DNA from: Occallatibacter sp.
GTDB taxonomy: Bacteria; Acidobacteriota; Terriglobia; Terriglobales; Acidobacteriaceae
NCBI GenBank assembly: GCA_031296165.1
Contig: JARLGF010000157.1
Coordinates: 1-33,614 of the forward strand
Direction of reading: 5' to 3'
Length of the DNA stretch: 33,614 nucleotides
The notes beneath the pieces were generated by a model. The model did not search any database. It was not told the DNA's origin and saw only the letters and a program-made list of their open reading frames with translations. Each line of letters begins with the position of its first letter. Position 1 is the stretch's first letter. Made by a program: the position numbers and the translations under genes. This document shows positions 7,254-11,997 of the stretch, piece after piece.

Positions 7254-7357
7254 TCGTTGCGCGGGCTGCGCAGCGAAGCCGCAACAAGCGACAGGCGCTG
7301 GTCATCCGCACAGCAAACCGCACGCTGAATCCGCAAAAAATCCAAATTAGCAAGAAC

Positions 7358-7393
7358 AAGAGCCGCAGCCTGTGACGATAAGGCGCGGCTCTT
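7358..7393. terminator. Bidirectional-looking hairpin terminator between the 7002 gene and tRNA-Cys
   Basis: AAGAGCCGC...GCGGCTCTT 9-bp stem followed by TTT on the + strand. Confidence 0.7.
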
Positions 7394-7413
7394 TTTGCGT
7401 ACAGGGCAGAATT

Positions 7414-7489
7414 TGGAGCACCGGGCGGGTTTCGAACCCGCGAATACAGGTTTTGCAGACCTGCGCGTTAGCCACTTCGCCACCGGTGC
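7414..7489 (-). tRNA. tRNA-Cys(GCA), with encoded CCA
   Basis: Minus strand GCACCGG TGGCGAAGTGGCTAACGC GCAGGTCTGCAAAACCTGT ATTC GCGGGTTCGAAACCCGC CCGGTGC T CCA: 7-bp acceptor, D, anticodon (GCA) and T arms all pair; U73 discriminator. Confidence 0.97.
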
Positions 7490-7498
7490 TTGAAAAGG

Positions 7499-7563
7499 CA
7501 GTTGTCAGTCGTCAGTTGTCAGTGAGAGTCCGATTGCTGAGAACTGAACACTGTCGGCTGCAA
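7499..7563. repeat. Heptad-periodic repeat C between terminator and tRNA-Cys
   Basis: CAGTTGT CAGTCGT CAGTTGT CAGTGAG at 7499-7526, with a related divergent stretch up to 7563. Confidence 0.65.
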
Positions 7564-7565
7564 CT

Positions 7566-7598
7566 AAAAAACCCACCGCGCCTTGTGGCGGGTGGGTT
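7566..7598 (-). terminator. Intrinsic terminator/attenuator on the minus strand
   Basis: RNA-sense AACCCACC-CGCC-acaa-GGCG-c-GGTGGGTT followed by UUUU: 8 bp + bulge + 4 bp stem with U-run, 26 nt after the leader ORF stop. Confidence 0.88.
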
Positions 7599-7624
7599 GA
7601 CTGGAGATTCTTTGCTTTCGGAAT

Positions 7625-7708
7625 CTAGCCCAGAGAACACGCCCGCGCGGTGCGGCAGCCCTGACAGCAGCAGCACAGACAGATCGCGGGAGTAGAGAAT
7701 CGGGCCAT
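7625..7708 (-). CDS. Cys-rich 27-aa putative leader peptide MARFSTPAICLCCCCQGCRTARACSLG
   Basis: ATG at 7708, TAG at 7627-7625; RBS AAAGGA at 7714-7719 with 5-nt spacing; 7 Cys codons including TGT CTG TGC TGC TGC TGT; terminator directly downstream. Confidence 0.8.
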   Translation of the reverse strand: MARFSTPAICLCCCCQGCRTARACSLG

Positions 7709-7763
7709 CGAAATCCTTTGCCGGGAAACACGCAAATCACGCTGCGGCTCACCGGATATTCGT

Positions 7764-7792
7764 AGACTAGAGGTAATCCGGAGGCAAGTCAA
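7764..7792 (-). promoter_or_regulatory. Putative sigma70-type promoter for the Cys leader/tRNA-Cys unit
   Basis: Minus strand TTGACT (7792-7787) N17 TAGTCT (7769-7764); -35 matches 5/6, -10 matches 3/6. Confidence 0.5.
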
Positions 7793-7795
7793 GCG

Positions 7796-8734
7796 ATGTT
7801 TGCAATCGATTATTTTGTGGTGGATGTATTCACAGGCACGGCGCTCACGGGCAATCCGCTGGCGGTGGCGATGAACAACCGCGGGCTGACAACGGAGCGG
7901 ATGCAGGCGATTGCGCGCGAGTTCAATTTTTCAGAGACCACGTTTGTGGAACGCAGACCGGCGGCGGTGGAAGAGGCCGAGGGCGTGCGGGTGAGGATTT
8001 TTACAACCCGGGAAGAACTGAACTTTGCCGGGCACCCGACGCTGGGCACCGCGAGCGTTCTGAAGCTGATCGCTCCCGAAGTCTTTGAGGGAGATACGGT
8101 GAGGCTGGCGGAGAATGTGGGGGCGATTCCGGTGCGATTCAGCGGGGATGGGCTTTACGGCGAGATGACGCAGCGGGACCCGGAGTTTGGCGAAGAGCTG
8201 AACCGGGCAGAGGTGGCGCGCCTGACGGGGCTGGCGGAGAGCGATCTGGACCCGGGGTTGCCGCCGCAGATTGTATCCACGGGAACCGCATTTGCGATTG
8301 TTCCGTTGCGTGACGCGGGGATGTTGGCGAGGCTCAGGGTGAAGCAGGAAGAGAGCATGGCGTGGCTGCGGGAGCGCGGAGCGCGGTGGTTCTACGTGCT
8401 GGGGCCCGCATTGGAGCAGGGCGGCGGCGGGGAGCCTGCGTGGCGTGCGCGGATGCAGTTTAATGGCGGCGAGGACCCGGCTACGGGATCGGCGGCCGGT
8501 TGCGCGATTGGCTACCTGGTGCGTCATGGCGCCGTGGCTCCGGGGGTAGGCACACATGTTCGGCAGGGTGTGGAGATAGGCAGGCAGAGCGATCTTTATC
8601 TTTCGGCGCAAATCCACGGTGGGGCAGAGCGCCGGCAAAACGGATTTGGCGAGGAGCAATCTTTGAAGGTGACGGATGTGTGCGTAGGGGGTAGCACCGT
8701 TCTTGTTGCAAAGGGACAGCTTTTCCTGCCGTGA
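7796..8734 (+). CDS. PhzF family phenazine biosynthesis-like isomerase
   Basis: YFVVDVFTGTALTGNPLAVAM...FNFSETTFV...LNFAGHPTLGTASVL...EDPATGSAAGCAIGYL; GGAGG RBS. Confidence 0.93.
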   Translation: MFAIDYFVVDVFTGTALTGNPLAVAMNNRGLTTERMQAIAREFNFSETTFVERRPAAVEEAEGVRVRIFTTREELNFAGHPTLGTASVLKLIAPEVFEGDTVRLAENVGAIPVRFSGDGLYGEMTQRDPEFGEELNRAEVARLTGLAESDLDPGLPPQIVSTGTAFAIVPLRDAGMLARLRVKQEESMAWLRERGARWFYVLGPALEQGGGGEPAWRARMQFNGGEDPATGSAAGCAIGYLVRHGAVAPGVGTHVRQGVEIGRQSDLYLSAQIHGGAERRQNGFGEEQSLKVTDVCVGGSTVLVAKGQLFLP

Positions 8735-10928: not shown

Positions 10929-11885
10929 TCAGGATTGCTCCCAGAAACGCTCGGAGAGATATGTGCCGGCCCCGTCGGGCAGAACGGTGACGATGACGGC
11001 GCGGCGGCCGGCGGCGGCTTCTTCACGAGCGATGCCGAGCGAGACGGAGACGGCCGCGGCAGCAGAGATGCCGACCAGCAGGCCTTCCTCGCGAGCCAGG
11101 CGCCGGGCCATGTCGTAAGCGGCTTCGGTTTCCACTTCCACGGTGCGATCGGCGAGATGGGGGTTATAGATGGCAGGCACCAGGGTTGGGCCCTGGTACT
11201 TGAGGCCGACAATGCCGTGCAAAGGCGCATTGGGCAGGAAGCTGATGGCCTGGAGGGCGGGGTTGCACCCCTTGAGAAAGCGGGTGACTCCGGTAAAGGT
11301 TCCGCTGGTTCCGATGCCGGCGACAAAGTGCGTGACCTGGCCGGAGGACTGCTGCCAGATTTCAGGGCCCGTGGTGCGGAAATGCTCCTGCCAGTTGGCG
11401 TCGTTGGAGTACTGGTCGGCGTAGTAGTAGCGATGGGGATCGTTGCCGGCGATTTCGCGGGCGCGGAAGATGGCTCCATCGGGACCCAGGGCAGGATCGG
11501 TCCAGTCCACTTGCGCTCCGTAGGCGTGGAGGATGCGCTTGCGCTCAGGCGAGACGTTGGAGGGCATGGCCAGCAGGACGGGAAAACCGAGCGCCGCGCC
11601 CAACATGGCGAAGGCGAGGCCGGAGTTGCCGGTGGAGGCGTCCAGGAGGGTTTTGCCCTGGGTGAGCAGGCCGCGGGCGCGCGCATCGCGAACGATGGCG
11701 GCGGCGGCCCGGTCCTTGACGCTGCCACCGGGGTTGGCCCACTCGGCCTTGCCTAGGAGGGTGATGCCGGCAAGATCGCGGACGGGCATTTCAAGGCGGA
11801 TGAGCGGCGTGTTGCCGATGCGCTGGGGCAGCGAGGAGCCGGGCATAGAAGAGACGGGAATTGCGGAGTTGCCGGTAATTTTCAT
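10929..11885 (-). CDS. PLP-dependent cysteine synthase family protein
   Basis: RIGNTPLIRLE...KAEWANPGGSVKDRAAAAIVRDA...LLDASTGNSGLAFAMLGAALGFP...GIGTSGTFTGVTRFLK; probable ATG at 11885 (ORF extends to 11957). Confidence 0.92.
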   Translation of the reverse strand: MKITGNSAIPVSSMPGSSLPQRIGNTPLIRLEMPVRDLAGITLLGKAEWANPGGSVKDRAAAAIVRDARARGLLTQGKTLLDASTGNSGLAFAMLGAALGFPVLLAMPSNVSPERKRILHAYGAQVDWTDPALGPDGAIFRAREIAGNDPHRYYYADQYSNDANWQEHFRTTGPEIWQQSSGQVTHFVAGIGTSGTFTGVTRFLKGCNPALQAISFLPNAPLHGIVGLKYQGPTLVPAIYNPHLADRTVEVETEAAYDMARRLAREEGLLVGISAAAAVSVSLGIAREEAAAGRRAVIVTVLPDGAGTYLSERFWEQS

Positions 11886-11997
11886 AGGAGATTTCTGTTG
11901 GGGCGAATTGCCGCCGGGGCTCGGCATATGCGAGATTCTACATAGCGAGAATTCCACCGAACCCTACTTAGATTATCCTCGCAGACTGGAAGCGACC

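Follow-up and report, generated by a model that had tools for sequence, protein, structure and literature searches.

The window, the whole 33,614-nucleotide stretch analysed here (contig JARLGF010000157.1 of Occallatibacter sp., Acidobacteriaceae), carries on its minus strand a tRNA-Cys(GCA) gene preceded by an intrinsic terminator and by a short upstream open reading frame (uORF) rich in cysteine codons. In the order of minus-strand transcription, after the upstream neighbour, the elements are as follows; segments 1 to 4 are the RNA segments proposed to form the alternative helices 1:2, 2:3 and 3:4.

7796-8734, plus: PhzF-family gene, divergent, upstream neighbour of the leader
7764..7792, minus: promoter TTGACT-17-TAGTCT (TTGACT 7792-7787, 17-nt spacer, TAGTCT 7769-7764)
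7714..7719, minus: Shine-Dalgarno AAAGGA (7719-7714), 5 nt ahead of the uORF start; A/G-rich there in relatives
7625..7708, minus: leader uORF MARFSTPAICLCCCCQGCRTARACSLG, ATG..TAG, 27 codons, 7 Cys
7685..7694, minus: segment 1 UACUCCCGCG, preceding the first Cys codon; partner of segment 2 (folding and 1:2 covariation)
7664..7681, minus: Cys codon run TGT CTG TGC TGC TGC TGT, proposed stall site
7636..7647, minus: segment 2 CGCGGGCGUGUU, codons 'ARAC' close to the stop; partner is segment 1 or 3
7605..7626, minus: stem AGATTC..GAATCT (folding), from the stop codon to the terminator, nested in the predicted antiterminator
7588..7598, minus: segment 3 AACCCACCCGC, 5' arm of the terminator; partner of segment 2
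7566..7597, minus: intrinsic terminator (3:4) and U-run, ACCCACCCGCC-ACAA-GGCGCGGTGGGT, -20.4 kcal/mol
7414..7489, minus: tRNA-Cys(GCA) of a second, non-housekeeping type (ARAGORN; Rfam RF00005), U73, encoded 3' CCA
7352..7394, minus: terminator-like hairpin past the tRNA, -21.7 kcal/mol (gene order)

A first-pass annotation had placed the promoter, Shine-Dalgarno sequence, 27-codon uORF with seven Cys, terminator and tRNA-Cys(GCA) at these positions, and this held in full, as did its claim that GCGGGCGUGUU (7646-7636) pairs with segment 3 (7598-7588) at 9 of 11 positions. It overlooked the 1:2 helix, the 7626-7605 stem and the fact that the tRNA is a second, non-housekeeping tRNA-Cys. Since the upstream neighbour is divergent, the minus-strand transcript most simply begins in the intergenic region. 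The terminator-like hairpin suggests that the unit is probably monocistronic and, given that an opposite-strand gene follows, the tRNA is the sole apparent target in the window. A generic promoter and terminator scan of the window listed neither the leader promoter nor the leader terminator, because the terminator stem is bulged and the -10 element weak (8/12 for the promoter overall). When the intergenic region was shuffled with dinucleotides preserved, just one of 3000 shuffles yielded any ORF of 20-41 codons with seven Cys.

Two other features of the window deserve mention. Short repeats of the CAACTGAC type occupy the spacer between terminator and tRNA (7490-7550), and that of some relatives; they are also found elsewhere in the same genome (contigs C6 and C118). 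A CysM-like cysteine synthase gene lies at 10929-11957 (minus strand), about 3 kb from the leader. The possibility that it has a leader of its own was dropped: neither of the covariance models described below (R1 and R2) matched there.

Distribution of the leader and of the genes behind it

In a BLAST search 17 of 61 relatives matched the leader, a few only weakly, and the window's own genome contains a paralogue ahead of a TonB-type outer-membrane receptor. Covariance model R1 matched 41 of the 81 genomes of the genus, together with other genera of the family; model R2, built from peroxiredoxin-linked leaders, matched 97 of 199 genomes of the family, in 24 genera (its lowest-scoring matches were not inspected). 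Among the strong R2 matches that were inspected, 46 of 50 have a co-directional tRNA-Cys no more than about 1.7 kb away. R2 adds 37 leaders to the R1 set, 35 of them with tRNA-Cys, giving 95 unique inspected leaders, 77 of which are followed by a tRNA-Cys in the same direction. All 95 belong to the soil-dwelling Acidobacteriaceae but one (L113, family f7), which stands ahead of cysD. Records matching the pattern are likewise Acidobacteriaceae or Acidobacteriales MAGs (e.g., PLPA01000016.1 and PMYL01000033.1). The relatives are not independent samples, and the counts therefore show conservation, not separate origins.

Two arrangements account for most tRNA-linked leaders. Within the window's genus tRNA-Cys directly follows the leader, with a gap down to 8 nt (genome G094); in other genera a peroxiredoxin gene lies between. 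Of the 58 leaders in the R1 set, 27 have tRNA-Cys as their immediate downstream gene (L032 makes one more, its contig breaking off within the tRNA-Cys), 14 have peroxiredoxin and then tRNA-Cys, and 16 lack an intact tRNA-Cys. Targets of these 16 are sugar isomerase / Gfo-Idh genes, a sulfate-binding protein, cysD, TonB receptors (one then followed by a sulfatase), peroxiredoxin-cysM and peroxiredoxin-encapsulin; peroxiredoxin without a visible tRNA follows L067 and L070, the contig ending in the latter. TonB targets may be under-counted in this classification, which used a TonB reference translated out of frame; L058 and L002 were checked separately. The sugar isomerase/aldolase targets might conceivably serve the breakdown of sulfosugars. 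Leaders without a tRNA thus stand mostly ahead of genes for sulfur acquisition or cysteine synthesis, and linkage of the family to both tRNA-Cys and sulfur genes is shown. The regulon encompasses, besides sulfate uptake, cysD, cysM, sulfatase and encapsulin, a JAMM-domain protein and a MoeZ-like gene.

Two single loci are recorded here as observations. At L161 an encapsulin-cargo desulfurase gene lies nearby, and at L040/L145 (G101:C127:43540-43618) the leader is followed by a degenerate tRNA-Cys relic and then by a sugar isomerase gene.

The position of the promoter is also shown. Of the 28 leaders linked directly to a tRNA, 27 are preceded, at the same place, by TTGACA or a near match with a TAxxCT-type -10 element at a spacing of 16-17; no comparable site was found between terminator and tRNA in these 28. 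The first-pass annotation had seen no convincing separate promoter in the terminator-to-tRNA interval of the window. In seven genomes that interval measures 8, 22, 25, 33, 33, 38 and 39 nt, which leaves scant or no room for a promoter.

The tRNA gene itself is distinct from the housekeeping copy. The window tRNA-Cys and the housekeeping tRNA-Cys (behind tRNA-Gly, L003) share 76% identity over 71 nt. Single-contig genomes of the family all possess the housekeeping gene, away from the leader (13/13), and 12 of 13 possess the second type, every copy of which (12/12) has a leader about 0.7-1.7 kb upstream. The seven housekeeping loci inspected have tRNA-Gly upstream and no leader. Several second-type copies lack an R1 leader directly upstream: contig ends truncate a few, others lie in operons with a second type of leader or stand before cysD, and some remain unexplained, e.g., three in G008. 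At L122 and L124 (G089 and G008) a window-like PhzF / tRNA-Cys2 neighbourhood occurs without a leader (PhzF assigned by eye), offering a natural comparison for gain or loss of the leader. On contig C1 of G251 and of G376 the 3' part of the housekeeping tRNA-Cys (nt 31-75) recurs as several fragments, which are probably attachment-site remnants of integrated elements.

The second leader type has the same design and an unrelated sequence: a Cys run with CATTCTGGCG / CGCCAGAATC. It is found directly ahead of tRNA-Cys in L134/L135, where segment 1 is CGCUGAAAUG, preceding the Cys run in L134 (pairing judged by eye), and elsewhere ahead of operons of rhodanese, tRNA-Cys and family-2A encapsulin (SrpI) (L157, L158, L160, L184 and L186; G010, G062 and G069). 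At L162, L128 and L137-L139 a porin-like gene lies ahead of tRNA-Cys2, followed in L162 by cysD. Short Cys-rich ORFs, e.g., MQIILTKIACCCCLR, occur upstream at porin-like gene / tRNA-Cys2 loci; they could conceivably represent a third leader type.

Coding conservation and alternative RNA helices

Every readable leader of the 58 contains a Cys-rich uORF (L060 is truncated by a contig end). Cys accounts for 23% of codons in 29 aligned uORFs; the two alternative frames give 7% and 2%. Divergence by codon position gives little signal (0.31, 0.31 and 0.34), since these codons are also under constraint from RNA pairing; conservation of coding was judged instead from codon tables of the Cys columns, most of which vary chiefly between TGT and TGC. 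Conservation of the Cys codons is thus shown. The runs of adjacent Cys codons differ in number and spacing with no fixed CxxC motif, and residues beyond the run and the RNA-pairing segments are variable. The leader peptides match no curated leader-peptide family, such as that of the mycobacterial Cys-rich leader peptides, with no match in NCBIfam and none above cut-off in Pfam.

Folding places segment 1 (TACTCCCGCG, 7694-7685; codons 'TPA') such that it ends 3 nt ahead of the first Cys codon, and pairs it with segment 2 (CGCGGGCGTG, 7647-7638; codons 'RAC' close to the stop). The resulting helix joins CACuCCCGCG, ahead of the Cys run, with CGCGGGcGUG close to the stop codon. Segment 3 resembles segment 1, each is complementary to segment 2, and from this we infer the layout of a full four-segment attenuator (1:2, 2:3 and 3:4), of which 2:3 is unproven by covariation. 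Stems resembling the AGATTC..GAATCT stem of the window were seen by eye in several relatives.

Covariation of 1:2 and 3:4 is shown. Across 58 aligned leaders, 14 of the 20 pairs in the two helices have changed on both sides, and 7 of 9 in 1:2 alone; none of 500 shuffles equals any of five measures of this covariation. Sliding the helix partners against one another, a control for both helices, reduces pairing from 92% to 36-51%, and the pairs of the terminator stem are formed in 92-98% of leaders. The alignment (A4) was fitted to the covariance model and is consequently biased toward its 1:2 and 3:4 helices. Minimum free energy folds contain 3:4 in 54 and 1:2 in 46 of 57 leaders.

Evidence for 2:3 is of a different order. 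Masking the first 50 nt of the window leader, to mimic a ribosome positioned on the Cys codons, and leaving out segment 4 yields a predicted 2:3 antiterminator that encloses the post-stop stem. The same stalled-state fold predicts 2:3 in 55 of 57 leaders; a shuffled control likewise gives pairing of segment 3 in 79%. Complementarity is kept, with 8 of 10 positions pairing in most leaders, yet covariation does not rise beyond controls (28-71 of 500 shuffles match it), the near-invariance of segment 3 being the cause. Such a result would be expected were segment 3 constrained by two partners, but the helix stays unproven. Duplex scores for 2:3 exceed those of shuffles in just 12 of 59 leaders, and duplex energy is too dominated by GC to serve as proof.

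The first-pass annotation, which read the locus as a cysteine attenuator, had held that a lack of conservation of the Cys codons or terminator in relatives would refute the idea. It passed: Cys codons, terminator and an additional RNA helix are kept across the family, mostly with tRNA-Cys downstream. The attenuator reading is supported, while stalling, readthrough and the response to cysteine remain inferred.

A putative cysteine attenuator and its rivals

We consider the leader most likely to be a cysteine-tuned member of the trp/his type of ribosome-mediated transcription attenuators, with the second tRNA-Cys as output; this function is inferred, there being no expression or ribosome-profiling data. 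With Cys-tRNA ample, the ribosome would translate through the Cys run, reach the stop codon and mask segment 2, 3:4 would pair, and transcription would end ahead of the tRNA. With Cys-tRNA scarce, the ribosome would stall in the Cys run and mask segment 1, leaving 2:3 to pair; the terminator would be blocked and RNA polymerase would continue into tRNA-Cys. In an untranslated leader 1:2 would form, making termination the default. Antitermination and any benefit of the response are, like the stalling itself, inferences from sequence alone.

Since the leader is one member of a broader cysteine/sulfur regulon, a shortage of cysteine is a likelier physiological signal than a shortage of the tRNA itself, and the composition of that regulon (sulfate uptake, cysD, cysM, sulfatase and others) is consistent with cysteine limitation as the signal. 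The benefit of the loop is unclear, because extra tRNA under cysteine scarcity would not lift the charged fraction; that the second tRNA is charged differently, or that it damps the regulon, is no more than a guess. A bolder reading is that a second, separately evolving tRNA-Cys is attenuated by its own codons in a feedback loop, the tRNA probably being specialised for cysteine or redox stress, given that it is co-operonic with peroxiredoxin and sulfur assimilation. We lean toward this reading, by a narrow margin.

The rival that survives best accepts a genuine cysteine attenuator and holds that the selected targets are protein genes (peroxiredoxin, sulfur uptake, cysteine synthesis), with tRNA-Cys a passenger. 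In its favour, peroxiredoxin sits between leader and tRNA in most other genera, 16 of the 58 R1 leaders lack an intact tRNA-Cys, and the tRNA behind the leader in G101 is a degenerate relic. However, tRNA-Cys comes first after 27 R1 leaders, usually with no tested sulfur gene behind it, and in the window it is followed by a terminator-like hairpin and an opposite-strand gene. Moreover, the tRNA is kept in both arrangements and peroxiredoxin is not, and it is present also in sulfur operons of different build. We regard the passenger explanation as unlikely.

A less probable alternative is a Cys-rich uORF that responds not to Cys-tRNA but to another cue, for instance copper, thiol oxidation or a signal from the nascent chain. 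Peroxiredoxin is a frequent target, and metal-responsive Cys-rich leader peptides exist in other bacteria. Against this stand the variable runs of adjacent Cys in place of a fixed CxxC, the variation of residues outside the run and pairing segments, the sulfur and cysteine genes that make up the remaining targets, and the abutment of the Cys run on segment 1, as codon stalling requires. There is similarly little to recommend the view that the tRNA has its own promoter, with the uORF and terminator an unrelated small gene: gaps of 60-270 nt in some relatives might house a weak promoter, but seven genomes have gaps of 8-39 nt, the conserved TTGACA-17-TAxxCT lies only upstream of the leader, and tRNA-Cys follows 77 of 95 leaders. 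That a chance ORF adjoins an ordinary terminator is all but ruled out, for although short ORFs are common in any sequence, the 1/3000 shuffle result speaks against it and conservation across the family already refutes it.

Precedents and implications

The closest precedent for the proposed cysteine attenuator is the polycysteine leaderless short ORFs of mycobacteria, which are cysteine-responsive attenuators (Canestrari et al. 2020, doi 10.1111/mmi.14498; cited in PMC9094748 and PMC13236596) and likewise place Cys runs in a short upstream ORF over cysteine/sulfur genes. The mycobacterial ORFs are leaderless, stand ahead of protein operons and are reported to act by translation attenuation (PMC13236596); the window leader, from another phylum, instead has a Shine-Dalgarno-led uORF, an intrinsic terminator with 1:2/2:3/3:4 and a tRNA as output. 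With the trp/his-type attenuators of Proteobacteria it shares a codon run after segment 1, a segment 2 by the stop and a 3:4 terminator. Known targets of such attenuators are protein genes for biosynthesis, synthetases or transport (for a broad screen see PMC2965389), whereas the proposed target in the window is the cognate tRNA of the codon being sensed. In Firmicutes, T-box leaders also respond to the charging state of tRNA via a terminator; they bind tRNA directly, whereas the window leader is inferred to rely on a ribosome decoding codons. Compared with Rfam, no T-box or other cis-regulatory family reaches the gathering score in the leader, and only RF00005 (tRNA) was matched.

The first-pass annotation had not recognised such feedback on a tRNA gene as a described arrangement, and we found no report of leader-peptide or T-box attenuation of a tRNA gene in the open-access literature searched, though absence there is not proof. 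The leaders thus probably represent a known mechanism, itself inferred, with a new kind of target, a tRNA gene, in a new lineage-wide family. A broad screen for attenuators assigned function to almost none in Acidobacteria (PMC2965389); the Cys leaders supply a likely function for one such family. They also raise the question of why extra tRNA should be made when cysteine is scarce, and whether tRNA-Cys2 differs in charging or use. Genes for tRNA are usually seen as governed by growth rate and the stringent response, not by demand for their own codon. If the reading is true, a conserved attenuator before tRNA-Cys would constitute a codon-specific feedback loop on tRNA supply.
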